29,873 nt of DNA from positions 1-29,873 of IMG/VR virus record IMGVR_UViG_3300043427_002313; one strand, written 5' to 3'. Position 1 is the first letter of the stretch; each line of letters begins with the position of its first letter. Positions 6,771 through 29,873 of this stretch are shown in pieces. The position numbers were made by a program, and so were the translations under genes. Origin of the DNA: a virus. The notes under the pieces are model-generated. The model did not search any database. It saw only the letters and a program-made list of their open reading frames with translations, and was not told the origin of the DNA.

Positions 6771-7109
6771 CTAGGAGGCGTCTTTAGTGCCCGGGCGATA
6801 GAAGACCCGCACCAGCACCGCCACGAGGACAGTGAAGCACCCCACCGCCAGCGCCCAGCCGAAGTCCCGGATGGTCTGGAGGGCCAGCGTGGCCGTCGAT
6901 AGTTGCCGCTCCAGGTTCGCGTCGTCGCTCTTCAGGTCCTTGCCCCCGTCCACGATGATGAGGGCCATGGTCTGGGAAGACCCGAAGGCCGAGAGCACGG
7001 ACTCGCAGATCCACGCGGAGCCCAAGGCCGAGACGCCGGCCGCCAAGGTCAGCATGACCACCGCCCAGAGCAGGTTGGTGTCAGCGCTTCTTGGGCTTTC
7101 GTTTGCCAT
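6771..7109 (-). CDS. Two-helix membrane protein in the lysis cassette
   Basis: This 112-residue protein has a hydrophobic helix at about 13-38 (LLWAVVMLTLAAGVSALGSA) and another at about 84-103 (GWALAVGCFTVLVAVLVRVF). Between them is a soluble, probably periplasmic section with coiled-coil character. It could be a holin partner, antiholin or spanin-like protein, and the sequence does not decide. The ATG at 7109 lies 29 bases inside the LydA-like holin gene, with the purine-rich AAGGGGAAG before it. It is the last gene before the early control region. Confidence 0.68.
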   Translation of the reverse strand: MANESPRSADTNLLWAVVMLTLAAGVSALGSAWICESVLSAFGSSQTMALIIVDGGKDLKSDDANLERQLSTATLALQTIRDFGWALAVGCFTVLVAVLVRVFYRPGTKDAS

Positions 7110-8797: not shown

Positions 8798-9690
8798 TTA
8801 GGAATAGGTAATGATGATTGCAAGGCCACCAGCACCAGCGCCACCAGCACCACTAGCAAATCCATTATTGCTAGCTGAGCCACCACCCCCGCCACCAGCA
8901 GGCCAGCCGCCATCACCACCCTGGCCACCCACTGATCCATTGACATAAGCACCACCCCCGCCACCTGTGCCACCATTCGGCCAATAATCTGTGCTTACAT
9001 AGCCAACACCAGCACCACCATTGATGCTGACAGCTGTTCCACCAGCACCGCCAGCAATTGCAAAATTGCAGCCCGAAACACTTGTGCTATTGTTCACTGC
9101 TGAGCCATTACCCCCAGCAGCTGATGTTAGGATGTTTGCCAACGCACCACCCCCACCACCACCACCTGTGCCAAAGAAAGGATTGCTGTTAAAAGTTGAG
9201 CCAGCTTGCCCTGTAGATGTTGCCCCGCTTGCTCCACTGTTGCTGGCAAAACCTGTATTGAAAAGCAGGAAGGATGTGCGAGCGCCACCACCTGATCCAT
9301 TGATTGTGCTTCCACCACCACCAAAATTACCGCCATGCGCACGAAAATTTGCAAAGGTAGTTGCTGTGCCAGCTGTCGCACCCCTTCCAGGGGTGTTATC
9401 AGTGGTGACAGACGCACCCCCAGCACCACCACCACCCACAGTGATGCTTTGAGTAGCACCAAGCTTATCAGCACTAAGCCTGATATAGCATTGGCTACCA
9501 CCAGCACCCCCGCCACCACCACTTCTGCCTGATGTAGTGGCATACCTTCCACCAGATCCACCCCCGCCACCACCACCCACCAGCAGAATATCCACCACCT
9601 TAGCACCAGCTGGCTTTGTCCAGGTGAATGTGCCAACGCTGTAGAATGTTTGCACATCACAGCCACCGCTACCACCACCGCCAGCCGTGG
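8798..9690 (-). other. Compositionally distinct polyglycine tip segment
   Basis: The C-terminal third of the fibre gene uses GGT, GGA, GCT and ACA-type codons and is much richer in A and T than the rest of the phage. The change falls sharply near 9690, at the start of the glycine-rich domain. This suggests that the receptor-binding tip was acquired separately from the shaft. Confidence 0.7.
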
Positions 9691-11236: not shown

Positions 11237-11255
11237 CCTACCCTTGGCGGGGGGG

Positions 11256-12080
11256 TCAAACCTCGACAGTCGCCCCGCTCGGGTCCTTGGTGTATCCGGA
11301 CCAGGAGCCGTTCCATGCCGTCAGCTCGGCGCCGTAGTAGGGGTCGGGGAACCAACCAGGAGGGGAAGCGGGGTCAACGTATTGCCAGCCCTCAAAAGAC
11401 AGAGGTGACGAAAGGCAAAGCGGTCCGAGGTGCGTCTGCGTCACGACAAAGGTCGAGCCGTCCCAGATCACGTCGGCCACCTTCCACTTCTGGCAGTTGT
11501 AATTATACATGGCCTGCCCCTCTAACTGGAAAAGCTGCAAGGTCACAGTGCCGGTCGGGGTGTCTACGTCCTGCAAGATTTGCTGATAAAGAATGAACCA
11601 CTTGATGGTCTGACCCGCTTGGAAGGGTTCGCTCTTGGTGTCCGCGTCAGACCCGTCCGCCATGATGGCCAGGTATGGAACGAAGGTCCCGACGTCGTCG
11701 TCAGGAGGGCAGCCGATGACGTACACGCCCCAGTTGTCAGACCCGCCCTCGACGCTGGCCGGCTGGATCTGCACATAGCCGCCAAGGTCAACCAAGGGGC
11801 TTTCGTTTGCTGTCGCAAAAGGCCCAGTGGTCTTCGAGCCGTCAGGGAAGCCGTAGAACTTTTGGATTTCAAACTGCGAAAGCCCGAGAACCCAGGCGGC
11901 GTTCTTGCGGTAGATGGGAGAGCGCACGAAACCCTTGCGGACCTGCACGCCGTAGCCGTAGCCCGTCGGCATGATGGTCACGCGGAACTGCTCCGGGTCG
12001 CCGGCCAGCTGCGGATCGTCAATGCTGAGGGACGTGCCGTTCTGGCCCGCGCTCAGGTTGTAGCCGTTGCCGGGTTGCAT
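11256..12080 (-). CDS. Distal tail or baseplate protein, unrecognised
   Basis: The 274-residue protein is not recognised. It is rich in Gly, Trp, Tyr and Pro with many beta-like segments (YGYGVQVRKGFVRSPIYR, WFILYQQILQDVD), and the C-terminal end (GWFPDPYYGAELTAWNGSW) looks like an exposed domain. Its position after the tape measure and a second tail protein and before the fibre matches baseplate genes of siphoviruses. The ATG at 12080 is 2 bases after the upstream TAA. There is no coiled coil, signal or membrane segment. Function is inferred from order. Confidence 0.68.
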   Translation of the reverse strand: MQPGNGYNLSAGQNGTSLSIDDPQLAGDPEQFRVTIMPTGYGYGVQVRKGFVRSPIYRKNAAWVLGLSQFEIQKFYGFPDGSKTTGPFATANESPLVDLGGYVQIQPASVEGGSDNWGVYVIGCPPDDDVGTFVPYLAIMADGSDADTKSEPFQAGQTIKWFILYQQILQDVDTPTGTVTLQLFQLEGQAMYNYNCQKWKVADVIWDGSTFVVTQTHLGPLCLSSPLSFEGWQYVDPASPPGWFPDPYYGAELTAWNGSWSGYTKDPSGATVEV

Positions 12081-12082
12081 TT

Positions 12083-12976
12083 TTAGGCTAGGATGGGGTA
12101 CACCTCAGGCACCCAGCCCTCGTTGGAGTAGCGGATGGTGTAGCTGATCTTGTAGACGTTCAGCGCATAGTCCTCGAAGTTAACGCTGGCCAGCAGGAGC
12201 TTGGCGCCGGCCGGACCCGTAAACATGGTGCCCATGTAGTTGGGCAGGAGCACCGGCAGGTTGCTGTTCCAGGTCTGGTCGTTGGATGAGTAGCCCACTG
12301 CGTCACGCATGGCTTGTACCACATTGGCGCCTAAGGCGCTGTCTTCCCCGCCCTTGACGTAGATGACGCCGGAGAAGCCCGTCGTCGGGGAGAGGTAGGA
12401 CTTGCGGCCGTAGTAGTACTTGAACTCCGGGTCGAGGAAGCCGACGAACTGACCACCCGTCTTCTGGGTGAAGTGCGCCCCGTTCTCGCCTTTGTATAGC
12501 GTGCCCGTGTCGCTTGTCTTGGCCTTGAAGGTGCTGGCCTCATAGATCGGGGCCGAAGCCGTTCCAGAGCCCACGCCGGCGATTACTCCCACGCCGTCCT
12601 CGATTTCAAAGAAATTGCGGTGCGTCTCGATAGGCTCGCTGCTCGTGGCCACGGCCCCGGAGACGTTGGGGGTGGTGACACTTGGCTCGCCTTCCCCGGG
12701 CGTGACACCCGTGTTGATGCCGACATACTCGACGGCCAAGGTGGCAATGCCGTTCTTGTCGTAGGTCGCAGTCACGCGATTCGACCACATGAAAGCATCG
12801 AAGGGGGCCACCGGATGAGGCAGGCCGCGCTCGAACTCGGCGATGAGGACGGCGTATTCTTGGTCTAGTTTAAACAGACACTTGCCCGTCCATAGGCCAT
12901 AGCCGTCCTGCTGGACTGTCCAACCTGGTTGAAGGACCGGGCTGGAGAGGTCGTTTCCTTTGTCGATGCGTGCCAT
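12083..12976 (-). CDS. Tail protein following the tape measure (distal-tail candidate)
   Basis: This 297-residue protein is not firmly recognised. The N-terminal part (QQDGYGLWTGKCLFKLD) and the C-terminal part (FEDYALNVYKISYTIRYSNE) are beta-rich, and a Gly/Ala/Thr-rich middle section may be a flexible loop. The order tape measure, this gene, baseplate-like gene and fibre fits a distal tail protein that caps the tail tube. The ATG at 12976 is one base after the tape-measure TAA. The longer in-frame form would overlap the tape measure and was rejected. A tail hub or receptor-binding base is the alternative. Confidence 0.68.
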   Translation of the reverse strand: MARIDKGNDLSSPVLQPGWTVQQDGYGLWTGKCLFKLDQEYAVLIAEFERGLPHPVAPFDAFMWSNRVTATYDKNGIATLAVEYVGINTGVTPGEGEPSVTTPNVSGAVATSSEPIETHRNFFEIEDGVGVIAGVGSGTASAPIYEASTFKAKTSDTGTLYKGENGAHFTQKTGGQFVGFLDPEFKYYYGRKSYLSPTTGFSGVIYVKGGEDSALGANVVQAMRDAVGYSSNDQTWNSNLPVLLPNYMGTMFTGPAGAKLLLASVNFEDYALNVYKISYTIRYSNEGWVPEVYPILA

Positions 12977-12977
12977 G

Positions 12978-13802
12978 TTAAGAGACGTTGGTGGTCTGGT
13001 AGTAGACGTTCTTGGAAGCGTTGCCGTTGGTCTGGTCCTTCGTGAAGTCCGAAGACGAACCGGCGGCCGCCGCAATCACCGCCAGGTATTCGTTGGCCGT
13101 CTTCTGCAGCTCGATCTGATGGTTGAGCATGGTCATGTGGGGCGAGTTGCCAACGCCGAAGACAGCGTTGTCGCCGGCGAAGACGCCGACAGTGGCGGCG
13201 GCCTTCTTCTTCTCAGCTTCGGCCTTGTCGGCGGCGGCCTTGTCCTGCTCCTCTTTCAGCGCCTTCTTCATGTCGGCCTCCACGATCTTGGCGACGGCGT
13301 CCTGCACGTACTTGAACTTGGCCAGCGCCGACTCGCTCATGCCAGGGCCTTCGTCCCCGGTGGCGGCTTCCTTGAAGAAGTACTGACGGCCACGGGGGTC
13401 GCGCTTCAGGAACTCCTCGGTGACAGTCTCGCGGGCGGTGGCGGCCTGCTCTTTCTCCTTCTCCGTGCGCAGGTCCACCTGCAGCTTCTGGGCCATGTAC
13501 CGCGTCGTCGGGTCCACAGGCGAGGCCTTGAGCTCCTCGACCTTGATGCCGGCGGCGAAGTCCACCGCGTCCTTGGCGTCCTGCCGGGCCTTGGCGATAG
13601 CGCCGGAGATAAAGCTCACGGCCTGCTGCACGAGCACCATCGGCGCAAGGAAGCCCATGAAGAGGTCTTTGCCGAACTCGGTGAACTTCTTGCCGATAGC
13701 CTGCGTCTGGCGGTCCATCTCGGACATGGCCTTCTTCGCCTTGTCCACTTGCTGGGGCACGTCGGAGGTGCCCTTGATGCTGTAGTTGACGTCCGTGCTC
13801 AT
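12978..13802 (-). CDS. Very short tape measure-like protein
   Basis: The 274-residue protein starts with VNYSIKGTSDVPQQVDKAKK and KAMSEMDRQTQAIGKKF, the helical opening seen in many tape measure proteins, then a hydrophobic stretch (FLAPMVLVQQAVSFISGAI). A charged helical rod follows (about 125-215, with EKEKEQAATARETV and a Lys/Ala/Glu repeat) and a polar C-terminus. It should set tail length and help eject DNA. Most siphovirus tape measures exceed 600 residues, so the tail would be short, about 40 nm by the usual 0.15 nm per residue rule. The ATG at 13802 follows a CCAAGGGTAGG box. Confidence 0.72.
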   Translation of the reverse strand: MSTDVNYSIKGTSDVPQQVDKAKKAMSEMDRQTQAIGKKFTEFGKDLFMGFLAPMVLVQQAVSFISGAIAKARQDAKDAVDFAAGIKVEELKASPVDPTTRYMAQKLQVDLRTEKEKEQAATARETVTEEFLKRDPRGRQYFFKEAATGDEGPGMSESALAKFKYVQDAVAKIVEADMKKALKEEQDKAAADKAEAEKKKAAATVGVFAGDNAVFGVGNSPHMTMLNHQIELQKTANEYLAVIAAAAGSSSDFTKDQTNGNASKNVYYQTTNVS

Positions 13803-13803
13803 C

Positions 13804-14340
13804 CTACCCTTGGGAAGTGGTAAAAGCCGCCATGGCTTCCTCGTCCTCCGTCGTCAGTAGGTTGACCTCAACCCCCTTGAGCCCGGAGAAGGTCGTCGAT
13901 AGCCAGATGGCCTGACACTCGGGCATCGTCCAGGCACGCTCCTCAGGCACGCCGTTGCTGATCAGGTTGGCCACTAGGTTGAGTATCCAGGGCATGCCGC
14001 TCACGCGCTGCTCTAGTTTGCCCGTGTCCCAGAACTTGGGCCAGTGGGACTCGAGCATGTAGGTGCGGAAGGCCATGCAATCGTTGGCCAGCTTCGCCTC
14101 GTCCTTGGCCCATACGTAAAGCAGGGCCTTGTCCTTCCCTGTCACGTCGTCGATGGGCAGGCCGGCGCACGTCTTGATTGCCGCGAGCATGTGCCCGGTG
14201 GTGTACTCGGCCGCCTCGACGAAGGGCGAGTTGATGGCGTGCAGGCGCACGCGGTGACGCAGGCAGAAGGGAGGCAACCGATACCCGAGGAAGTCGATTT
14301 CCTCTGGATCTGTAAAGGCTAAGGCAAAGCGGCGGTCCAC
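13804..14340 (-). CDS. Tail assembly chaperone-position protein
   Basis: The 178-residue protein lies exactly between the tail tube candidate and the tape measure, where the gpG-type chaperone is found in lambda-like phages. It is mainly helical with many aromatic residues (LAAIKTCAGLPIDDVTGKDK, ALLYVWAKDEAKLANDC). I see no slippery heptamer and no downstream open frame for a gpGT fusion before the tape measure, so the chaperone may be made as one form. The start is GTG at 14338-14340. Its TAG is embedded in the CCAAGGGTAG box that precedes the tape measure ATG. Homology is not certain, so function rests on position. Confidence 0.66.
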   Translation of the reverse strand: MDRRFALAFTDPEEIDFLGYRLPPFCLRHRVRLHAINSPFVEAAEYTTGHMLAAIKTCAGLPIDDVTGKDKALLYVWAKDEAKLANDCMAFRTYMLESHWPKFWDTGKLEQRVSGMPWILNLVANLISNGVPEERAWTMPECQAIWLSTTFSGLKGVEVNLLTTEDEEAMAAFTTSQG

Positions 14341-14349
14341 GCCCTACGC

Positions 14350-14724
14350 TTACACGTAGGAAGCGATGCCGTCAACCTGGCGGAACTTGATGCTGACCCG
14401 GACGAAGTCCTTGTTGCTGCCCTTCTCGGACACGGACTCGATGCAACCCGTGATGCTCTGGGAAACGCCCACGTCCGTCTTCAAGGCGACAGTGATGGCC
14501 GCGCCGACCTCCGGCATGTCCGTGGTCTTGGCGATACCTTCGATAGTGCCGGTGCGCTCCACGCCGTCGTAGCGCAGGGTCACAGTCACGCCCGTCTCGT
14601 CGGCCACCTTGTCGTTCAGCTCGAAAGCCTTATCGACGCTCAGGCTCTGGCAGATGAAATTGCTGATGCCGGCCTGCGCGGCCACGCCGTACAAAACCGA
14701 AACGCCTTTGAGGATAGCAGCCAT
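14350..14724 (-). CDS. Tail tube-position protein (lambda gpV-like place)
   Basis: The 124-residue protein is beta-rich (GVTVTLRYDGVERTGTIEGI, KDFVRVSIKFRQVDG), as expected for tail tube subunits that stack as hexameric rings. It is short for the family, which is often 150-250 residues. The gene follows the gpU-position gene and precedes the chaperone-position gene, matching the lambda order U-V-G-H. The ATG at 14724 follows the clearest CCAAGGGTAAGAACC box (14729-14743). Abundant expression would be expected. A different small tail protein is possible. Confidence 0.64.
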   Translation of the reverse strand: MAAILKGVSVLYGVAAQAGISNFICQSLSVDKAFELNDKVADETGVTVTLRYDGVERTGTIEGIAKTTDMPEVGAAITVALKTDVGVSQSITGCIESVSEKGSNKDFVRVSIKFRQVDGIASYV

Positions 14725-14751
14725 GGGTGGTTCTTACCCTTGGCGGGCCGG

Positions 14752-15189
14752 TCAAGGCGCAAGGACGCAGAGGACCGACACCCGCAGGACAGTCGCCCAG
14801 GCACCCGTCTGCTCGTCCAGCCCTTGGTCTTCCGAGACCACTGTCACGTCGTACAGGGCCGCGTCGCCTTGGCTGGAGAACTGGCTAGTCATGGCCGCCA
14901 CGTCCGACAGGGTGGCCACCATGGCCGCCGCCCGGGCCCGGTGGGTCGTCAGGGTCACGTCGTTAGCGTTGTCGTGCAGGACCGCCCGCACCTGGCAGTC
15001 GTAGTTGCCAAGGCCGTCAGGTAGGCCAGCGGGGGTGTTGGCGGAGTCGCAGACCACCACCACCTTGGGCATGATCGCGTCGGCCGTGCTGTCCCCCGGG
15101 TAAATGTTCACTCCCGTGAATGTGGCTTCGGCCTGAAGCATGGTCACGAGGTTGCCCTCGACGATGTGGCGGATGCTGGATGTGCCCAT
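14752..15189 (-). CDS. Tail terminator-position protein (lambda gpU-like place)
   Basis: The 145-residue protein has a helical start (IRHIVEGNLVTMLQAEATF), central beta strands (AIMPKVVVVCDSANT, YDCQVRAVLHD) and a last beta pair (LYDVTVVSEDQGLDEQTGAW). This alternation fits the small alpha/beta fold of tail terminators that end tail growth and join it to the head. It lies between the gpZ-position and tail tube-position genes, as gpU does in lambda. The ATG at 15189 is seven bases after the upstream TAA. The assignment is from order and fold pattern. Confidence 0.64.
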   Translation of the reverse strand: MGTSSIRHIVEGNLVTMLQAEATFTGVNIYPGDSTADAIMPKVVVVCDSANTPAGLPDGLGNYDCQVRAVLHDNANDVTLTTHRARAAAMVATLSDVAAMTSQFSSQGDAALYDVTVVSEDQGLDEQTGAWATVLRVSVLCVLAP

Positions 15190-15195
15190 AAGTGG

Positions 15196-16161
15196 TTAAC
15201 GCTTTGATGCCTTGTCTGCGGCCTTCTTCAACCTTTGTTCCAGGTCAAGGCGCAGCTGCTTGTAACGCAGGCCGAGGACAGTGCTTTTCACGTCCGCTTC
15301 GGTGCTGACCTTGTTCATGTCCGCGATGCCGTTGCCGATGACCAGGGAGAAGACGTCCTTAGCCTCGAGCAGTTGAATGTACCCGGCCTGCCCGGCATGG
15401 CGCTTGATGTAGTTCGGGATGCCCGAGGTGCCGAAGTTCGCCTTGTTCTCGCGGCTCGAAGGCTTGGGCAGGCCCATTAGGACCTTGTACCAGCCAGACT
15501 TCAGCTTGCCAACAGAAGGCGCACGGCTCGCCACGTACTCCTTGATGGCCTCATCGTCCTGAACTAGCTGCTTGTCGCGCCAGTTGCGGAGCGGAGACTT
15601 TGAGCGTCCACCCACCAGAAAACGACCATTGAAGCGCTTAAGATGCGCCTCGTGGATTGGTCGCAAGTCTTGAACATAACCGACCCCAAACTGAGTGCTC
15701 CTGGCGATGGACCGGGCAAAGTAGTTCTTGGCCTTACGGAAGGCCCGCTCGTCGTCGTAGTCGTTGGCGATGGCCCGCAAGATTTTGGTGCCTTTCTTCA
15801 ACACAGACATCTTAGCGCCATCCAGCAGAGATCGGAAATCAGAGGGAGAACCATACCGCGTAGAATAGGCCAGTTGCTGGGTGACTAGCAAAAGAGGCCC
15901 GGACCCTTTCCCGTTTACCGCGGTGTAAATCTTTCGGACGTCGCGGTTGATGGTGTTCTCGCCGGCCTTCTGGGCCTGTTGCTTGAGGCCGTTGCCCTTC
16001 GATCCCATCGGGGGAGTCAGCATCATGGATTCGCGGCACATTAGCGCCGCATTCTTTAGCCCCACGTCCTTGATGGTCTCGCGGCAGGCGAAGGCGTACT
16101 CCATCATGGCCTGCTCGAACTCAGCTAGGCTCTTAGGCTCAATCTTGGTCTCGACCCTCAC
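15196..16161 (-). CDS. Head-tail completion protein, gpZ-position (GTG start)
   Basis: The 321-residue protein is not firmly recognised. It is helical and basic, with an N-terminal Ser/Glu-rich helix (KSLAEFEQAMMEYAFACRET) and a mid-section of aromatic and basic residues. The start is GTG at 16159-16161, overlapping the upstream TGA (GTGA). A longer open frame upstream overlaps the next gene and was rejected. Its position, after an FII-like gene and before a gpU-like gene, matches lambda gpZ, a minor tail protein needed for attachment. The length is larger than gpZ (192), so it may carry an extra domain. Confidence 0.65.
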   Translation of the reverse strand: MRVETKIEPKSLAEFEQAMMEYAFACRETIKDVGLKNAALMCRESMMLTPPMGSKGNGLKQQAQKAGENTINRDVRKIYTAVNGKGSGPLLLVTQQLAYSTRYGSPSDFRSLLDGAKMSVLKKGTKILRAIANDYDDERAFRKAKNYFARSIARSTQFGVGYVQDLRPIHEAHLKRFNGRFLVGGRSKSPLRNWRDKQLVQDDEAIKEYVASRAPSVGKLKSGWYKVLMGLPKPSSRENKANFGTSGIPNYIKRHAGQAGYIQLLEAKDVFSLVIGNGIADMNKVSTEADVKSTVLGLRYKQLRLDLEQRLKKAADKASKR

Positions 16162-16538
16162 TGGTTCAGCAGGATGACCTGCAGAGTCACCCAGGCGCTG
16201 GAACGCTTGTGGGTCTGGCCGACGATGCGCAGGCTCTTCCCGTCCACGGCAATGACCTTGCCAATCCCCAAGGAGGCGATGGGGTCCTGCCCGCTGATGA
16301 TGGCCGCCGATGCCCCAATAGACCCGTCTGGGAGGCTCCAGGAGGCCGTTGCAGCCGGGATGCGTACCATGTGCTGGGTCCGGTCCACAAAGCCCCCCTC
16401 TTGGAAGGACTGGGTGATGACCGGGTCGGAGATCAGGCACTGAAAGGTGATGGCCCCCGCGTTGCACGAGCCGGGCACCCCGAAGTCGGCCACCATCTCC
16501 TTGGCGTCAGGAAGAAACTCGGAATAGAGCGTGGCCAT
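16158..16538 (-). CDS. Head-tail joining protein, FII-position
   Basis: The 126-residue protein has beta-like sections (GAITFQCLISDPVITQSF, IGKVIAVDGKSLRIVGQT) and ends in WVTLQVILLNQ. This beta-barrel-like pattern and length (lambda gpFII is 117) fit the head-closure protein that binds the portal ring and accepts the tail. The gene follows the capsid gene across the terminator hairpin. Its ATG at 16538 is preceded directly by CCAAGGGTAAG. The stop overlaps the next GTG (GTGA). Confidence 0.65.
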   Translation of the reverse strand: MATLYSEFLPDAKEMVADFGVPGSCNAGAITFQCLISDPVITQSFQEGGFVDRTQHMVRIPAATASWSLPDGSIGASAAIISGQDPIASLGIGKVIAVDGKSLRIVGQTHKRSSAWVTLQVILLNQ

Positions 16539-16559
16539 CTTACCCTTGGGAAATCAGTC

Positions 16560-16589
16560 AAAAAAAAGGGGCCCCCCGAAGGGAGCCCC
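16560..16589 (-). terminator. Intrinsic terminator after the major capsid gene
   Basis: On the minus strand GGGGCTCCC, loop TTCG, GGGGGCCCC forms a nine-base-pair stem (one G-U) followed by eight T residues at 16567-16560. The UUCG loop and U-run are the textbook form. It would reduce transcription of the tail genes relative to capsid. The 74-bp gap 16539-16612 contains only this and the box before the next gene. Confidence 0.88.
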
Positions 16590-16612
16590 AGTTGGCAGCC
16601 GTTAGGCTAACC

Positions 16613-17479
16613 TCAGGCGCTGAGCACCCGCTTCAGGTTGTTGCGGCCCTTGGCGGCACCCATGCGGATGGCGGCCGTCAAGTAGAGGATGCCGTGCGTG
16701 TACTCGGACTCGACCATGACGGACAGGCCGCCCATGGTGGCGATGCCGGAGTTCGGGGAGGCGGACCAGACCGAGCCGGTGCCGATGCAGATCGCGTCCT
16801 TCGAGGCGGCGAAGCCGACCAGGTTCTCGCCGTTGGCCGGGAGGCCGGCGTACTGGAGGACCTGCAGGGTGCCGATGCGGCCGACGATGCCGGTGCGCAC
16901 GACGCTGTTGTCGCCCTGGGTGTTGAACGCCGAGGTCAGCTTGGCGTCCTTGCGGAGCGCGCCGATGTAGGCGGAGTTCAGGACGAGACCGCGCTCAGCC
17001 GGGGCTTCGAGGCCGTCGAGGAAGACGTCGAGGTCGACCACGTCATTGTAGTCGAAGTTCGCGGCGGTGATGACTTCGTTGGACGAGAAGTTCGCGTTGG
17101 TCACGACAGCGGCGACGGCGGCGTTGACCTTCTTGACGATCTTGGCAACGGCTTCTTCGCGGAAGGCGTTGATGATGCCGTCGGCACCCCAGGCGGCGAG
17201 CTCCGAGGCGTCGAAGCCACGGGTGGCATGGTAGTGGACGAGATTTACGGAACTCTTCGTGACATCAGCGTCGCCCGTTTGAGCGTAGCCGCCGGAAGCC
17301 TTGTCGAAGGTGATCGCGTCGTCGCCCGAGATGAAGGGGACGTCGATGGTGGTGCCGCGGTCTTCCGTGGACTGAGCCATCGTGGTGAAGACGTCGAGGA
17401 CGGGGAGCTTCGGGCGGAGGTCGGCGACGATGATGTCGGCGAGCGCGGCCGGAGCGATGTTGAAACCGGAGTTAGCCAT
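16613..17479 (-). CDS. Major capsid protein (HK97-fold)
   Basis: The 288-residue protein is the likely capsid subunit. It opens with a helical N-arm (APAALADIIVADLRPKLPVL), has the central loop-and-helix region, and a C-terminal block (GILYLTAAIRMGAAKGRNNL). It has repeated Gly/Ala/Thr-rich sections and mixed alpha-beta composition without a signal. Gene order (S49 protease, scaffold, then this) and the strong terminator directly after it both indicate the abundant capsid gene. The ATG at 17479 has an unusual leader with CCCTAAT repeats. Length is a little under the usual 300-400. Whether the N-terminus is cleaved by the S49 protease is not visible. Confidence 0.82.
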   Translation of the reverse strand: MANSGFNIAPAALADIIVADLRPKLPVLDVFTTMAQSTEDRGTTIDVPFISGDDAITFDKASGGYAQTGDADVTKSSVNLVHYHATRGFDASELAAWGADGIINAFREEAVAKIVKKVNAAVAAVVTNANFSSNEVITAANFDYNDVVDLDVFLDGLEAPAERGLVLNSAYIGALRKDAKLTSAFNTQGDNSVVRTGIVGRIGTLQVLQYAGLPANGENLVGFAASKDAICIGTGSVWSASPNSGIATMGGLSVMVESEYTHGILYLTAAIRMGAAKGRNNLKRVLSA

Positions 17480-17514
17480 AGGTGTGATTAGTAGGGATTA
17501 GGGATTAGGGAAAA
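17480..17514 (-). repeat. CCCTAAT-repeat leader of the capsid gene
   Basis: The 35 bases before the capsid ATG read on the minus strand as tandem CCCTAATC units ending in CCCTACTAATCACACCT. There is no AGGAG ribosome-binding site, although capsid should be highly expressed. A/C-rich or structured leader translation, or binding of a regulatory protein, are possible explanations. Confidence 0.55.
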
Positions 17515-17940
17515 TTAGGAGAGGCGGCCAAAGAGGATGGCGGCCTTGTGCTTCTGCAGGAAGGCCACGCGCTCGGCGCCGGCAGGCATGGCAGCGTACT
17601 GCTCCTTGAGCTGCTCGACAGTGGCGGCAGGGGCTTCCTGCTTCTCGGCGGCCACGGGGGTGGTGCCGGTGCTGGCCACGATCTCGGCGGCCTGCTTGGC
17701 GGCGGAGACGTGCGTCAGTTCCAGGGCCGCGACCTTCTCGGTGAGGGCGGCAACCTCGGCGGTCAGTTCGCCGATGCGGGCATCCTTGGCCACGACGTCC
17801 GCCTTGACGGCGGTCAGTTCGTCGGCGGCGCCGACAGTCAGCTTTTCGACAGTGGCGCGGAGGTCGTCGCGCTCGGTCAGGAGGGCGGAGGCGGCAACGC
17901 GGAGGTCGTTCAGTTCGGCTTCGGGAGTCAGCTTGCTCAT
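17515..17940 (-). CDS. Coiled-coil scaffold protein
   Basis: The 141-residue protein is strongly helical. A long coiled coil spans about 5-80 (LRVAASALLTERDDLRATVE, IGELTAEVAALTEKVAALEL), followed by an Ala/Thr/Pro-rich linker and a short C-terminal helix (YAAMPAGAERVAFLQKHK). Small coiled-coil proteins between an S49 protease and the capsid gene act as scaffolds for head assembly, as lambda Nu3 does. The ATG at 17940 follows the CCAAGTTTAAGAACC box (17941-17955). The longer in-frame form would overlap the protease gene and was not used. Confidence 0.78.
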   Translation of the reverse strand: MSKLTPEAELNDLRVAASALLTERDDLRATVEKLTVGAADELTAVKADVVAKDARIGELTAEVAALTEKVAALELTHVSAAKQAAEIVASTGTTPVAAEKQEAPAATVEQLKEQYAAMPAGAERVAFLQKHKAAILFGRLS

Positions 17941-17970
17941 GGTTCTTAAACTTGGGGATGCGGTCAAACG

Positions 17971-18762
17971 TCAGAAGGACGCAAGGGCTTCCTCGAAGGA
18001 GTCGGCCAGCCCCGTGGCGAGGCCCAGCTGCACGGCTTTCTTGCCGGAGAAGGTGCCGCCCGTGAAGGCCAGAGGGCTCACGTTAATGCGGGTGTACTGA
18101 ATGGACTCCTGGAACTCGGAGGCGATGTCATCGACCTGAGCCTGCAGGTCGGCGACCTGGGCTTCGGTAAGCGTCGTGCCTTCGATGCCGGCGCCCTTCA
18201 GAGGGGACTGGCTGGACTTGATGACCACCATACGCACGCCCGCGTCGCCGTATGCCTTGGAATAGTCAGGGATAGCCATGTACACGCCCACGCTCCCGAT
18301 GGAGCCGGAGGGCATGGCGACCACTCGGTCGGCGGCGGCGGCCAGCCAGAGGGCGGCGCTGTTGGCTTCCTCCGCGTAGGCCATGGTCGGCTTCTTCATG
18401 CGGCGGATCTTGGCGGCCAGCTCAGGCACGCCGGCGACAGTGCCGCCCGGGGAGTTAACGCGGAAGGCAACCTTCTTGACGGACGGGTCGGCCTCGAAAG
18501 CGTCGATGGCCACGCTGATGGCGTTCACATCAGTGGCGCCAAGCATGCTTTCAATCGGGGACACGCCCCGGCCGATGGGGCCGTCGATGGGGATGACGCC
18601 CACGCCTTCGGCGGTGACATGCGCCACCGGGCGTTCACCCAGGAGCTTGGCCAGCACGTCAGAGAAAGCGTACTTGTCCAGGCGGGCGGAGTATTCCGCG
18701 GCCTTGACTGGGTCGATTAGCATGGGCTCGAGGCCCTTCAATCCGTGGGTAAGGAAGCGCAT
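17971..18762 (-). CDS. S49-family head maturation protease
   Basis: The 263-residue protein is a ClpP/SppA-fold serine protease that probably cleaves scaffold or portal during head maturation, as lambda gpC does. Readable motifs include the oxyanion strand VAFRVNSPGGTVAG at 98-111, the nucleophile Ser135 in EEANSAALWLAAAADRVVA, and the segment IGSVGVYMAI. A catalytic-site Lys is likely in VIKSSQSPLKGAG. There is no signal peptide. It lies between the portal and scaffold genes. The ATG at 18762 fits a TAA three bases upstream. Confidence 0.85.
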   Translation of the reverse strand: MRFLTHGLKGLEPMLIDPVKAAEYSARLDKYAFSDVLAKLLGERPVAHVTAEGVGVIPIDGPIGRGVSPIESMLGATDVNAISVAIDAFEADPSVKKVAFRVNSPGGTVAGVPELAAKIRRMKKPTMAYAEEANSAALWLAAAADRVVAMPSGSIGSVGVYMAIPDYSKAYGDAGVRMVVIKSSQSPLKGAGIEGTTLTEAQVADLQAQVDDIASEFQESIQYTRINVSPLAFTGGTFSGKKAVQLGLATGLADSFEEALASF

Positions 18763-18765
18763 GTT

Positions 18766-20319
18766 TTAGGAATTGGGTTCTTCTTCGGTCTCGTCGTCGA
18801 TTTCCTCATCGTCGTCCATGTCGTCATCCGTCTCTGGGACGGGCGCGGCGACAGGGGCGGGGGCAGGGGCCGGAGAAGACGGGGCCTGCATGTTGGAGAA
18901 GCGCTGCATGGCCTCCTCGAAGGCCACCTTGCCGGAGGTCGCTTCAATCGTGTCCTTGGCGTAGACGATGTCCTGCACCAGCTCGGCGAAGGTCTTGCGG
19001 AAGTCGATGCCACGCTTCTTGGCGATCGCGGAGAAGGAAGTCAGGCCAGCCTTGAGGTCCTCGCGGTCATTCGCGGAGTCGCGGCCGTTGTCGATGCTGG
19101 GGCTCTGGGGCACGCTGAACTCCACGTCCGCCCAGTTCGGGTCGTCGGGGAGAAGGCCGGCCGCGATGGCCGAACCGATGCGCCACTGCCAGTCGGGGAT
19201 GAGGTAGCAGTCGTGAAGCATGCACTGCTTGTCGCCGACGTAGCGGTCCGCCTTGCCTAGCACCATGCGCACCAGCGCCGAGCCCGCCTTGCTGCCGTCG
19301 TTCACCACCTCGTAGGGTAGGCCACCGCTGGCAATCTGCCGCGAAAGGATGGCGTTGAACATGTCCATGCCCTGGCGGGGGAAGTTAGGCGCAACGCTCT
19401 TCAGGTCCTCGCCGGGCTCGAGCACGAGCAGCTTGCCGCCCATCTGGGAACCGATGTTCCCGAAGTCCGACGTGCCCATGCCGTTGAGGTCGGCCTCCAT
19501 GTTCTGGTCAATCGAGCCGCCATTTTTGGTGAGGACAGTGGGGACGTCCGTCACCTGCTTAGTCGCCCTAAGTTCCAGCTGCATGATCTCGACCTGGTCG
19601 GCCATCGAGTTGAGGGCCTGAGCCATGGGAGGCAGGCCGTGGGCCCCGCTTACCCGCTTGAAGTCGGCGATGTGCAGGTAAGTGCCGGCGGGCTTGAACT
19701 CGAACTGCCCTTCGCCGAACTGCACCCAGATGCCGCGAACCTCGCCGTACTTGCCGAAAACGAAGCCGTCCCAAGTGTCGGGCGTCACGTCCTTCGGGGC
19801 CGAAGGGCTGACCACGCGGTGGCCCTCGATGAGCTGCATCGTCGCCTTGCCCGTCGCCGGGTCGTTGACCTTGAGGGCGAAAATCTCGCCGTCCACCGCC
19901 CAGGTGTTGACGATGATGCGCTGGACCTGCTCCCCGGTCTTGCCGGTCACGTCCGCCTTGCGGGTGTCGCGGTAGTAGTAGTCCTCGTACAGTCGGGCCT
20001 TGGCAGGGTCGGCCGCACGGGAGGTCGGAGTGCTTCCGTCGCCGACCACGTACATGGTCATGTCGTTGACGTACTGAACCATGCTCGGGTAGTTCTTCTC
20101 CCCGTAGCGCGCCTTCTGCAGCAGGCTCTGGCGGTCGTATGCGCTGACATCCTTGCGCGCGTCCTGCGGCGTCGAGCCGTACCAGGCACGCCGGGCAAAC
20201 GACATGCCCGCATTCTGGAAGTTAGAGGACCAGCCAGTGTTCTGGGCCTTCGGCTTCGGCGCCTGAGCGCTTCCGGCCGTAGGGACTTGGACCTCTTTCT
20301 TGACGGACTTCTTGGGCAT
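18766..20319 (-). CDS. Phage portal protein, lambda family
   Basis: The 517-residue protein forms the dodecameric ring through which DNA enters the head. It has the lambda-portal opening (RRAWYGSTPQDARKDVSAYD) and the long helical-beta core with LYEDYYYRDTRKADVTGK and YVNDMTMYVVGDG. The C-terminus is a Pro/Ala-rich linker and an acidic tail (TDDDMDDDEEIDDETEEE). Length is typical (about 500). It follows the gpW-like gene as in lambda. The ATG at 20319 is 1 base past the previous stop region. The acidic tail is longer than usual and may touch the capsid or the scaffold. Confidence 0.88.
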   Translation of the reverse strand: MPKKSVKKEVQVPTAGSAQAPKPKAQNTGWSSNFQNAGMSFARRAWYGSTPQDARKDVSAYDRQSLLQKARYGEKNYPSMVQYVNDMTMYVVGDGSTPTSRAADPAKARLYEDYYYRDTRKADVTGKTGEQVQRIIVNTWAVDGEIFALKVNDPATGKATMQLIEGHRVVSPSAPKDVTPDTWDGFVFGKYGEVRGIWVQFGEGQFEFKPAGTYLHIADFKRVSGAHGLPPMAQALNSMADQVEIMQLELRATKQVTDVPTVLTKNGGSIDQNMEADLNGMGTSDFGNIGSQMGGKLLVLEPGEDLKSVAPNFPRQGMDMFNAILSRQIASGGLPYEVVNDGSKAGSALVRMVLGKADRYVGDKQCMLHDCYLIPDWQWRIGSAIAAGLLPDDPNWADVEFSVPQSPSIDNGRDSANDREDLKAGLTSFSAIAKKRGIDFRKTFAELVQDIVYAKDTIEATSGKVAFEEAMQRFSNMQAPSSPAPAPAPVAAPVPETDDDMDDDEEIDDETEEEPNS

Positions 20320-20322
20320 AAA

Positions 20323-20586
20323 TCAAAAGACGCGGTTATCCCAGCGGACGCTGATCACGGACCTGCGGCGCAGGCTCGCATACTGCTGGGGGTCCAACAG
20401 ATACAGAGCATAGTTGGCCTCGGCCAGCATGTCCTTCGGGGGAATGGCCCACTGCTTCGACACGCTCGACCCGCTGTCGCTGTAGCTGACGATGTTCAAA
20501 CCCTGCGTGATGGCGGAGACCGCCTTGGCGCGGATGGCCAGGAGCTCGTCTTCCGTCAGGCCGATGAAAAGTCCTTGGGTCGCCAT
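20323..20586 (-). CDS. gpW-like head-tail connector
   Basis: The 87-residue protein has an alpha-helical first part (LTEDELLAIRAKAVSAITQG), a central turn with Ser residues, and a basic end (YASLRRRSVISVRWDNRV). Lambda gpW is 68 residues, is encoded between the large terminase and portal genes, and joins the head-tail interface. The position is exact here. The ATG at 20586 has the CCAAGGTTAAGAACC box (20592-20606) 5 bases upstream. The basic tail may contact DNA. Confidence 0.78.
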   Translation of the reverse strand: MATQGLFIGLTEDELLAIRAKAVSAITQGLNIVSYSDSGSSVSKQWAIPPKDMLAEANYALYLLDPQQYASLRRRSVISVRWDNRVF

Positions 20587-20726
20587 GGGTCGGTTCTTAA
20601 CCTTGGCGGAGAAGTAAAGGGGGACGGACCGGGGGTTCCAAGCACCCGCAGCGCCAAGCCATCAGCGCCACAAACAACATTTCCCCGGTCCGTCCTCGGT
20701 CCAAGGTGACGGCCTCCGGCAGGTCG
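20587..20726 (-). promoter_or_regulatory. Intergenic region after the large terminase gene
   Basis: This 140-bp gap between the large terminase stop and the gpW-like start has no gene. It holds a long stem-loop (20622-20695), a GGCGCTG direct repeat inside the loop and the CCAAGGTTAAGAACC box. It is the only sizeable gap among the packaging genes, so a packaging or transcription signal could lie here. No AT-rich -10 element is obvious. Confidence 0.5.
20622..20695 (-). ncRNA. Thirteen-base-pair stem-loop downstream of the large terminase gene
   Basis: GGACGGACCGGGG (from 20695-20683, minus strand) pairs perfectly with CCCCGGTCCGTCC (from 20634-20622), giving 13 bp with a 48-nt loop. Only short T-runs follow (CCCTTTACTTC), so it is a poor intrinsic terminator. 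It could be a transcription-attenuating structure, a processing site, or part of a packaging signal. Pairing is strong enough that chance is unlikely, but function is not shown. Confidence 0.5.
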
Positions 20727-22520: not shown

Positions 22521-23074
22521 TTCGTCGCGGCCTCCAGCGCCTTCGACAGATCTGCCCGGGCGGAGCGTGCCCACTCACGCAGGGCCGCGTGCGCCGTCGG
22601 CGGGTCGTTCGGGTTCGCCTTGTCGCCGGCCTCGACGTCCAGCTTGTCGAACTTGGCAAGCACTTCGCCCATCAGCTCGACCATGGCCTGCCTTGCGTCG
22701 TCGGCCTTGATGTAGTCACGGGCCAGCAGGGCACGGCGCTCCTGCTCCTCCTCAAGGAATAAGAGAGATTTCAGACTCTGGTTATACGCGGTCTGGTACT
22801 TGCCCTGGTTCGGGTCGCCCGTTTCCATGGCCGCTTCCCAAACGCCGCGAGCCCGACCAACCAGCCCCCGGTGCTCCTCGATCGTGTCGGCCAGTGAGCC
22901 GTCGTCTAGCTCTGGCACCTTGGCCTTCGGTGCTCCACGCCGGCGGGCGGCGGCCTTCTCGTCACGCCAGGCTTGCGCCGCTTCCAGCGAAGTGTCGGGC
23001 ATGCCGTCCTTGATCAGGATGCTGACGCGCTGCGCAGTCACGCCGAGCCCGGCGGCCAAGTCTTTGAGCTTCAT
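22517..23074 (-). CDS. Terminase small subunit, Nu1-like
   Basis: The 185-residue protein likely recognises the packaging site and brings the large terminase to it. The N-terminus has a MerR/Nu1-type helix-turn-helix (LKDLAAGLGVTAQRVSILI, KDGMPDTSLEAAQAW), a known feature of Nu1 proteins. A helical middle and a C-terminal helix, which should contact the large subunit, follow. Length is close to lambda Nu1 (181). The ATG at 23074 overlaps the upstream TGA as ATGA, and its stop forms a GTGA with the large terminase. Assignment rests on HTH, length and context together. Confidence 0.82.
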   Translation of the reverse strand: MKLKDLAAGLGVTAQRVSILIKDGMPDTSLEAAQAWRDEKAAARRRGAPKAKVPELDDGSLADTIEEHRGLVGRARGVWEAAMETGDPNQGKYQTAYNQSLKSLLFLEEEQERRALLARDYIKADDARQAMVELMGEVLAKFDKLDVEAGDKANPNDPPTAHAALREWARSARADLSKALEAATK

Positions 23075-23721
23075 TTGCGGGGGTTCTTCCTAAATCCAAG
23101 GTTTTTGCACTTCCTGCTCTTTAAAAAAGAGGGGGGTGCTGGCGCCACGCGGCTCCCGGGGGGGGTCAAAAGAGATGCCTTTGGGGGGGGTATGGGGGTC
23201 TTTCCACGGGCCTGCTCAGTGAACGCCGCGTCTGTCAGGCCGTCCAGCTGCGCATCAATGCTCTGACGGCGGCGCCTCTCGACCCGGGCCAACATCCTTC
23301 GCGCCAGATAACTGATGGCCTGTTTGGTTACGCCGAACATCTCGCCGATCTCCTTGCCGGACCGATGCCCGGGCGCACGCAGTACCAGGCGCATCAGCTC
23401 CCAGTGCCGGCGCACCTTCGGGTCGTCAGTGTAGCCAAGCATGTCCACCACGTCGGCGACGATGCGGGCCACTTCCTCCCTGGTCATGTAGCTCTCCGTC
23501 TCCTCGTGCTCTTCGACGTTGGCCGTGCTCCATGCCTTGCTCGACTCGTAGATCGGGAAGACGTGGTCTTGCACGCGGGCCTCGGAGTAAGGGCCGGCGT
23601 TCATCTCGCGCATGCGCTCCTGCTGCGCCTTGGGCAACGAGCGGAACCATGCGTCGTAACGCTTGGCGTGTGCCCGGTCTTCCTTAGTGACCTGCCTATC
23701 GAAACCCTTGAGGTCGGGCAT
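23071..23721 (-). CDS. Sigma-region-4-like HTH protein before the packaging genes
   Basis: The 216-residue protein has a region-4-like HTH at about 121-148 (SGKEIGEMFGVTKQAISYLA), like sigma factors, which bind the -35 element. The rest is charged helix (RREEVARIVADVVDMLGYTD) and a Pro-rich, basic C-terminus. It lacks the -10-binding region 2, so it is not a full sigma factor. It may be a transcription activator, a late-gene regulator or a packaging-site binding protein. The ATG at 23721 overlaps the upstream TGA by one base (TGATG). Three G-runs in its coding strand region 23131-23190 could cause slippage. Confidence 0.66.
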   Translation of the reverse strand: MPDLKGFDRQVTKEDRAHAKRYDAWFRSLPKAQQERMREMNAGPYSEARVQDHVFPIYESSKAWSTANVEEHEETESYMTREEVARIVADVVDMLGYTDDPKVRRHWELMRLVLRAPGHRSGKEIGEMFGVTKQAISYLARRMLARVERRRRQSIDAQLDGLTDAAFTEQARGKTPIPPPKASLLTPPGSRVAPAPPSFLKSRKCKNLGFRKNPRK

Positions 23722-24033: not shown

Positions 24034-24372
24034 TTACACCACCGGGAAGACGTGGCAGTGGTTTACCCAGACGTCGGCCTTGTAGTCGTATGCCATCAGG
24101 TCGTGGCGGCGCAAGCGGTTGAAGAAGCTCTTGGGGTTGCCGCGGTAGATGCCGTCGATGTAGGCCAGCACCTGGTCAGTGGTCAGGGCCGCCGGCAGAT
24201 CGGAGAGCCGGGCGACTAGGGCCGCGTGGTTGGCGTGGCGTTGGGCCGCCGCCTTGGCCGTGGCCTTGCGCCTAGCCGCCTCCATGCGCTCGGGCTTCTC
24301 TCGCCAAAGTTTTTGCCTAAGCCGCGTTAGCTCGAGACGGCGCAGTACTTTCTCGGGGATGTTTTTTCTCAT
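24034..24372 (-). CDS. Hypothetical basic DNA-binding-like protein
   Basis: This 112-residue protein is not recognised. The first 60 residues are a very basic helix (KNIPEKVLRRLELTRLRQKL, KATAKAAAQRHANHAAL). The second half has a helix-turn-helix-like stretch (TTDQVLAYIDGIYRGNPKSF) ending in a beta end, so nucleic-acid binding is likely. The ATG at 24372 is decided by AGGGAGG eight bases upstream, the best Shine-Dalgarno in the genome. The in-frame extension upstream was rejected. It is the first gene after the structured intergenic region 24373-24579. Confidence 0.7.
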   Translation of the reverse strand: MRKNIPEKVLRRLELTRLRQKLWREKPERMEAARRKATAKAAAQRHANHAALVARLSDLPAALTTDQVLAYIDGIYRGNPKSFFNRLRRHDLMAYDYKADVWVNHCHVFPVV

Positions 24373-24579
24373 ACCCTGGCCCTCCCTAGGTTCGGGTGTT
24401 TCCCCCCAAGGGTATCGACGAGCGTCCCCCGTAAGGGGGTATAAGCGTAGTCGCATACCCTACCTATCGAGAGATAGGACGGAAGTAGTGACGGAAGTAT
24501 GCCGTGGCAATGGGCTTGCATAGGATGGGCTGGAAGGCGTTTTAAGGTGGGGGTGGGGGTGGGGTGGCTGTCCTCACCC
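24373..24579 (-). promoter_or_regulatory. Structured intergenic region downstream of the primase-helicase
   Basis: This 207-bp gap holds no gene. On the minus strand it has an ACTTCCGTC direct repeat, the hairpin CCTATC-TCTC-GATAGG, an imperfect inverted repeat GGGTATGCG/CGCTTATACCC, and CCCCC-TTAC-GGGGG. At its far end is a G-rich run on the plus strand (24546-24567). An AGGGAGG ribosome-binding site precedes the next ATG. It may contain the late promoter, replication origin or packaging site, but no good -35/-10 pair is visible. Confidence 0.55.
24546..24567 (+). other. G-quadruplex-capable run
   Basis: The plus strand has four or more G-tracts separated by single T residues in 22 bases, fitting the usual G-quadruplex pattern of four or more runs with short loops. 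The opposite, transcribed-sense strand is C-rich. It lies just after the primase-helicase stop, where it could slow a fork or polymerase. Confidence 0.6.
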
Positions 24580-29073: not shown

Positions 29074-29675
29074 CGTTTGATGCGGACCTTGTTAGGGCCT
29101 CGGGCCTTGTACTTCCTCGCGATCTTCAGCCCCATCTTCTTGGCGGCGATGTAGAGCCGGGTGTAGGGGATGCCAAAGCGCTTCTCGGCCTCGCGGAGGG
29201 TGATGCCGAGGTCGTGCGCCTTCTGGGCGGCCTCGTAGGACTCGGGCTCCTTGATGCGGAGGGTGCGGCCGTCCCTGGTCTTGAACAGGTTTGCCCCGCC
29301 CACGGGGGCCTTGGTGCCGTAGTCGCTGCGCTTGCCGGCGGGGAGGGAGCCGCCCCAGGAGAGCTTACGGCGGCAGCCAGCGGGCCACGTCACGCCGACC
29401 TTGGCGAGGAAGGCGGTGATGACACCCAGCTCGACCTTGGCGTACTCGGCGGCCTCGTAGGCCGTGAAGCCCTGCCGGTGTGCCAAGCGGCAGTTGGTGG
29501 CCAGTCGCTTCTCTTCCGTCGTCCAGTCGGCCTGCTCCTTGAGGAACTGCCGGTGAATGCCCTGCGGGCAGTTGGCCAGGAAGGTGAGGCGCTCGGGGGT
29601 CATGCCCCACTTCTTGGCGAGGTCGTAGATGTCGCCCGGTTCGGATCCGTAGCCGGCGAAGAAGTCGGAGCTCAT
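29070..29675 (-). CDS. HTH-domain protein (complete copy)
   Basis: The 201-residue protein has an N-terminal helical domain (DIYDLAKKWGMTPERLTFLA) with an HTH look, a basic middle, and a second HTH near the C-terminus (ITLREAEKRFGIPYTRLYIA) followed by Lys/Arg-rich KARGPNKVRIKR. It probably binds DNA as a regulator or accessory replication protein. I chose the ATG at 29675, which overlaps the kinase TGA (ATGA). A TTG-start extension 3 codons longer is possible. The first part is repeated, slightly diverged, at 1-200. Confidence 0.72.
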   Translation of the reverse strand: MSSDFFAGYGSEPGDIYDLAKKWGMTPERLTFLANCPQGIHRQFLKEQADWTTEEKRLATNCRLAHRQGFTAYEAAEYAKVELGVITAFLAKVGVTWPAGCRRKLSWGGSLPAGKRSDYGTKAPVGGANLFKTRDGRTLRIKEPESYEAAQKAHDLGITLREAEKRFGIPYTRLYIAAKKMGLKIARKYKARGPNKVRIKR

Positions 29676-29873
29676 AGTTTCCAAAGCTTGGCGATGCGGT
29701 AGCCGTGGAGCAGCACGGCCTCTTCGTCGCCGGAGGTGGCGTAGACTGTCTCGTCGAAGGGGACGGCGGCCATGATCTCGACCAGCGACATGGCCTCTTC
29801 GTCGTTGGCGGCCTTCCAGCCATGGCGGACGATGTGGACAGCGTGCAGGCTTACGCCGTACATGTCGCAGTAG
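29476..29873. repeat. Right copy of imperfect terminal repeat
   Basis: This matches 1-398 with the 11 differences listed for that copy. In coding terms the differences give Thr for Ser, Asn for Gln and His for Tyr in the HTH protein, and synonymous changes at Val and Thr codons of the kinase gene. The pattern is that of selected sequence variants and not of read errors. Confidence 0.95.
29672..29873 (-). CDS. C-terminal part of dNMP kinase (cut by window edge)
   Basis: This is the last 66 or so codons of the gene complete at 197-754, with the frame open to the window end. It differs by two synonymous changes in the compared part. The stop overlaps the HTH gene start (ATGA). The truncation reflects the contig end and is not a broken gene. 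Confidence 0.85.
   Translation of the reverse strand, partial: YCDMYGVSLHAVHIVRHGWKAANDEEAMSLVEIMAAVPFDETVYATSGDEEAVLLHGYRIAKLWKL

Follow-up and report, generated by a model that had tools for sequence, protein, structure and literature searches.

A bipartite box at the start codons of six late genes of a tailed phage, re-spelled from clade to clade: candidate late promoters

The late region of the tailed phage studied here carries a bipartite unit of about 25 bp, TTKACC–N6/7–CCAAGKTTAAGA followed by 0–9 nt and then ATG, which occurs in six copies before six late genes of the window (the whole stretch of 29,873 nt that was analysed) and nowhere else in it. In related phages the same six genes carry a box whose spelling has been replaced clade by clade. 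The reading favoured here, to which we give about an even chance, is that the six boxes may be phage-specific late promoters which yield leaderless or very short-leader mRNAs and are read via a phage specificity factor. The further suggestion that they represent an undescribed kind of late promoter, abutting the start codon and changing its spelling at all six sites, lineage by lineage, along with a helix-turn-helix factor, is offered tentatively from the comparison of genomes.

The window is an IMG/VR record of a tailed phage in which the terminase, portal, protease and capsid genes all lie on the minus strand, and its early half encodes a primase/helicase, Erf, an exonuclease and a methyltransferase. 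Since the two ends of the record overlap (8-398 matching 29484-29873, 391 bp at 98.2%), the record is close to complete, the genome being circularly permuted or terminally redundant. An Opitutales-type verrucomicrobium is the probable host, because relatives of the TerL occur in three MAG bins (Opitutales, Opitutae and Verrucomicrobiota) and Verrucomicrobia phage P8625 is among the strongest TerL matches by E-value in the cultured phages listed. A host call from cultured relatives was dropped, as a search of 50,697 phage records gave no match to the capsid protein and the best TerL identity to cultured phages is only about 23%.

The initial annotation had listed a set of box strings before late genes on the minus strand, all of which were recovered there above chance frequency: CCAAGGGTAAGAACC at 14743-14729, CCAAGGTTAAGAACC at 20606-20592, CCAAGTTTAAGAACC at 17955-17941, and a short form, CCAAGGGTA(G/A)G directly followed by ATG, at 11247, 13813 and 16549. 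With up to three mismatches allowed, the window holds nine matches where 1.7 are expected, a count reached by 0 of 100 shuffles. It was correct that the box is longer than a ribosome-binding site, but its upstream half had been missed: when the starts are compared side by side, TTKACC stands 6-7 nt 5′ of CCAA at all six sites (with a spacer of 7 nt at five and 6 nt at one), and the box first reported is the 3′ half of the bipartite unit. The long and short forms, which had been kept apart, are one box and differ in the 0-9 nt that lie between it and the ATG. The six copies and the neighbouring features are as follows, with clade A denoting the relatives of the window's phage.

20596..20619, minus strand: start box 1, CTTTACTTCTCCGCCAAGGTTAAG, 9 nt 5′ of ATG 20586 of gene 20323-20586; PWM 28.3; conserved at 16 nonredundant clade A starts and also in clades B, C and D
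17945..17968, minus strand: start box 2, TTTGACCGCATCCCCAAGTTTAAG, 4 nt 5′ of ATG 17940 of gene 17515-17940; PWM 32.3; 13 clade A starts
16539..16562, minus strand: start box 3, TTTGACTGATTTCCCAAGGGTAAG, abutting ATG 16538; PWM 28.0; 5′ end in the T-run of the capsid terminator
14733..14756, minus strand: start box 4, CTTGACCGGCCCGCCAAGGGTAAG, 8 nt 5′ of ATG 14724; PWM 27.4; 7 clade A starts
13803..13826, minus strand: start box 5, CTTTTACCACTTCCCAAGGGTAGG, abutting ATG 13802 and overlapping the 3′ end of gene 13804-14340; PWM 28.3; 7 clade A starts, spacer of 6 rather than 7
11237..11260, minus strand: start box 6, TTTGACCCCCCCGCCAAGGGTAGG, abutting ATG 11236; PWM 27.0; 8 clade A starts
16560..16589, minus strand: intrinsic terminator after the major capsid gene, 9-bp stem and T8, overlapping box 3
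16613..17479, minus strand: major capsid protein gene (phrog_283), with no box, no Shine-Dalgarno and an anti-SD energy of 0
23071..23721, minus strand: helix-turn-helix protein gp23071, upstream of TerS in all clades; candidate specificity factor

There are six late groups, and in each of them the box is carried by the leading gene alone; none precedes the major capsid, portal, protease or terminase genes in the window's late region; its earlier description as specific to structural genes was sound in pointing to late genes and too broad in which of them it covered. The early genes lack it, as had been claimed, and the box does take in a stop codon of the preceding gene, the TAG of gene 13804-14340 lying inside box 5. 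A looser string, GGAAGAACC at 23090 before TerS, had been counted with the others and reaches no box-level score in the window. The start of gene 17515 is ATG 17940 according to its homologs, and not the TTG of the automatic open reading frame, which begins inside the box (17967-17941).

More than 100 related contigs were brought in from IMG/VR by searches with TerL, the capsid protein and gp14752, and ten larger contigs are syntenic with the window. Scored with the full motif matrix, the box is present at all 62 non-redundant clade A starts of the six genes, with every score at least 19.5, against a maximum of 17.4 for 106 control starts of ten other late genes, 102 of which score below 7. 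The four exceptions are weak matches before TerS in four relatives (L012, L013, L014 and L018; e.g. TTTTTCCAAGGTTGGG; score 7.7-17.4, 17-31 nt 5′ of the start); they seem to lie within the last part of the gp23071 coding region and may be a degraded seventh site. When the matrix was built from five genes and the sixth was scored, all starts of five of the genes and 5 of the 7 starts of gp12978 exceeded the 99th percentile of the 106 control starts. When both strands of whole clade A genomes are scanned, each genome shows exactly six strong sites; all lie at late genes and on the coding strand, which upholds the late control element that had been proposed. Nearly all other hits score no better than shuffled sequence, apart from a single hit of 17.6 in the early half of G001. 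The clade A consensus consists of TTKACC, a spacer fixed at 6-7 nt but free to drift in its letters, CCAAGKTTAAGA, 0-9 nt and ATG, with positions -18 to -13 unconserved. At the same gene the distance from CCAA to the ATG drifts between 11 and 20 nt, the ATG never being nearer than position +11, which is nearly always A.

In the more distant clades B-D these six genes also have a box, spelled differently: (G)TTGCCC–N–CCGCAG(A/T)TTT in clade B, also written with CCGCAG(A)TTT and again with exactly six strong sites per genome; TTCCAA–N–GCAA–TTAAG in clade C; and CAAC–N–CTAAAGATAT (CTAAAG) in clade D. The two halves start about 11-13 bp apart in clades A-D, as read from alignments. In a comparison that took one representative set per clade, with the boxes picked by eye, identity is 0.71 between genes within a clade and 0.58 for the same gene between clades, a contrast reached by 0 of 5000 label permutations. 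That all copies in a genome have changed spelling together argues for a trans-acting reader of the box; six separated sites changing jointly are the expected mark of a reader that they share, and point to one. Such concerted re-spelling in four clades and dozens of relatives also sorts the functional parts (the two halves and their fixed spacing) from the non-functional and suggests that the phage factor co-evolves with the box. The arrangement of box 3 and the terminator is kept in relatives too, the T-run holding the start of the box in clades A-C and clade D having its own short form there. In three clade B contigs (L033, L037 and L057) the gp14350 box is displaced to about 33 nt from the start codon, and an unrelated leader fills the gap. 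A 6.3-kb contig (L097) combines a clade C box at gp20323 with clade A-like boxes at gp17515 and gp16158, which suggests a recombinant (or a chimeric assembly).

In the promoter model, each box would head a late sub-operon that comprises two or three genes, transcription would start at the ATG or within about 9 nt upstream of it, giving a leaderless or very short-leader mRNA, and the host RNA polymerase would be redirected by a phage-encoded specificity factor co-evolving with the box. The occurrence of exactly six strong sites on one strand, each at the first gene of a late group, counts for this model, and a spacer of fixed length and drifting letters between two conserved halves about one helical turn apart is typical of bipartite DNA recognition. 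Because the box starts within the terminator T-run, expression of the gene that follows has to begin anew or depend on read-through, and the drifting ATG distance, together with the 33-nt cases of clade B, fits a promoter better than an RNA signal bound to the start codon. The nearly invariant A at +11 in clade A would fit a transcription start, leaderless in the short forms and with leaders beginning AAC or AC in the long ones. The concerted re-spelling, the five analogous elements of the cultured phage P8625 described below, and the way in which the helix of the candidate factor tracks the box type also speak for the model. What counts against a promoter is that the halves lack -35/-10 spacing, that the upstream half is only 23 nt from the ATG in the short forms, which is unusual for a bacterial promoter, and that the clade A box is always within 9 nt of the ATG, as a translation signal would be; moreover, the annotated gp18 of P8625 starts right after a terminator and has no box, which makes read-through a real option. 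Known promoter classes were also considered. A sigma-70 promoter (TTGACA-N16-18-TATAAT) was rejected, there being no match above chance and no found site that coincides with a box, and a sigma-54 promoter was rejected on inspection, GG (-24) and GC (-12) being missing at that spacing in the clade A boxes. A T7-like promoter would be similar in length to the box, but no gene for a phage single-subunit RNA polymerase was seen among the large proteins scanned.

The best candidate for the specificity factor is gp23071, a conserved protein encoded just upstream of TerS in clades A-D (about 80 contigs), whose C-terminal part is a helix-turn-helix (weak Pfam matches to MarR_2, HTH_11 and Sigma70_r4). 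Its recognition helix differs by clade, reading GVTKQAIS in A, VSKQAIHKRA in B, GISHFTMRYRA in C and GKGRDSIS in D, and tracks the box type, with KQAI accompanying TTGNCC in A and B and SH accompanying TTCCA in C and in L247, a record with an SH-type helix and C-like boxes; the extra contigs mostly have no late region, and L247 alone added data to this correlation. The AlphaFold2 model of the protein is weak to fair (pLDDT 68, pTM 0.34), and in a Foldseek search with it sigma factors stand at the top and make up most of the best 30 matches, none of them significant (best E 0.095); no sequence match was found in the PDB or in phage records. Because there are other conserved small proteins to which no function was assigned (e.g. 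6771-7109 and 24034-24456), gp23071 is to be taken as a lead, a candidate for the factor that reads the box, rather than as a result.

An alternative that is possible, if rather unlikely, is that the box acts in the mRNA, where a phage RNA-binding protein or the ribosome would bind it to begin translation at the gene that leads each late group, as has been suggested for the SAS of mycobacteriophages. The position of the clade A box 0-9 nt before the ATG at every site, its confinement to the same strand and its placement, closely like that of SAS in cluster K and cluster EF phages, all suit this alternative, whereas the drift of the ATG distance, to about 33 nt in three contigs, does not. Furthermore, the six sites share no RNA fold, their pairing with the anti-SD does not rise above random (in clade B it is about 0 at all but one of the six genes), the spelling differs by clade although ribosomes hardly change, and the capsid gene, whose product is needed most, has no box. 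A shared RNA hairpin was rejected for the lack of such a fold; the gp14350 site alone folds better than shuffles, via a GGKT...AACC pairing that the short forms do not have. A boxA/nut-like reading of CTCTTTACC was set aside as well, since it is seen at one gene only and is not conserved at the others. The leader of the capsid gene (window 17480-17514 and homologs) is itself conserved, A/C/T-rich and CCCTAATCCCTACTAATCACACCT-like, with no Shine-Dalgarno pairing, and a similar leader precedes gp14350 in the clade B contigs with the displaced box. The initial annotation had raised both an RNA and a DNA role and preferred the former; the motif's architecture and drift, the lack of a shared RNA fold, the overlap with the terminator and the elements of P8625 lead us to favour action as DNA.

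It is improbable that the boxes, instead of being start signals, are repressor or silencer sites of the stoperator kind, or RNA-processing sites at the boundaries of late sub-operons. The stoperators of mycobacteriophage L5 are likewise one-directional asymmetric sites close to gene starts, but they are spread over both genome arms, whereas the box stands at six late starts only, and among the proteins scanned none was recognised as an integrase or a repressor; sub-operon mRNAs would also result if a long late transcript were cut, but a bipartite site of 25 bp is long for the known RNases. A plain ribosome-binding site, with AAGG as its Shine-Dalgarno and chance similarity around it, is very improbable and was rejected on the evidence of the relatives: AAGG is complementary to the 16S rRNA tail and stands 5 nt before the ATG in the short forms, but its spacing to the ATG spans 5-14 nt, in all clade A phages examined it reads AAGT or AAGA at gp17515, and most clade B-D sites lack it, while TTKACC and TTAAGA stay (conservation of AAGG alone, with the remainder drifting, which had been named as the sign of a plain site, is not seen), and the anti-SD pairing energy is at random level in clade A (-3.3, against -3.0 for random sequence) and about 0 at five of six genes in clade B, the exception being gp12978.

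Phage late promoters that are read with a phage factor are known from T4 (gp55) and SPO1 (gp28/gp34), where they have -10 or -35/-10 elements and ordinary leaders. The boxes resemble these in being late-gene-specific sites with what would be phage-specific recognition, and differ from them in lying right against the ATG and in having no more than a candidate factor.

In P8625 (NC_029047.1, L129), whose TerL is about 23% identical and which is thus only distantly related to the window's phage, a TTGACA-N8-GTATCC-N7-GGATAC-ATG element stands before five late genes (5412, 9620, 10736, 15558 and 17499); in four of the elements 17 nt separate a TTGACA-like hexamer from a TAT that stands just before the ATG, and one element lies right after the terminator downstream of the capsid gene. 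Like the boxes, these elements occur in several copies, at late genes, at the ATG, in one case after the capsid terminator, and in a phage with a host from the Verrucomicrobiota; they differ in their unrelated spelling, palindromic second half and sigma-70-like 17-nt spacing. Promoters are not mentioned in the P8625 genome paper (PMC4642752). The annotated TTG start of P8625 gp13 at 9620 is the first base of the element, and the real start is probably an ATG slightly downstream.

The closest described counterparts of the boxes are the SAS and ESAS of cluster K mycobacteriophages (PMC3203893; Adephagia, PMC11373665) and cluster EF Microbacterium phages (PMC7302621), in that both are asymmetric repeated boxes just 5′ of selected start codons, longer than a ribosome-binding site and conserved in front of particular gene families, and in both a further upstream element varies in spelling between subclusters or clades. 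The SAS lie 3-9 nt 5′ of the start and the boxes 0-9 nt in clade A, with the 33-nt exceptions in clade B; an ESAS consensus shared within a genome and differing between subclusters likewise has its counterpart in the boxes. The SAS consensus, GGGATAGGAGCCC / GGGAAAGGACCCC in cluster K / EF phages, is not that of the boxes (CCAAGKTTAAGA). The cluster EF SAS was aligned to the 16S 3′ end (PMC7302621), whereas the duplex energies of the boxes are those of random sequence, and fall to about 0 for all but one of the six genes in clade B. The ESAS, later read as containing SigA-like promoters, has 17-bp imperfect inverted repeats, where the boxes have a single TTKACC upstream and no repeats. The SAS phages have 13-19 SAS genes per genome, against six here, all of them late and in phages of a different host phylum. 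The boxes were therefore not filed as SAS: placement, one-way orientation and lineage-specific spelling are common to both, and sequence, 16S pairing and inverted repeats are not. SAS have been known in phages since 2011 without an agreed function, and the boxes bear on how late genes may be switched on without Shine-Dalgarno signals in phages of the Verrucomicrobiota, hosts with almost no phage genetics.
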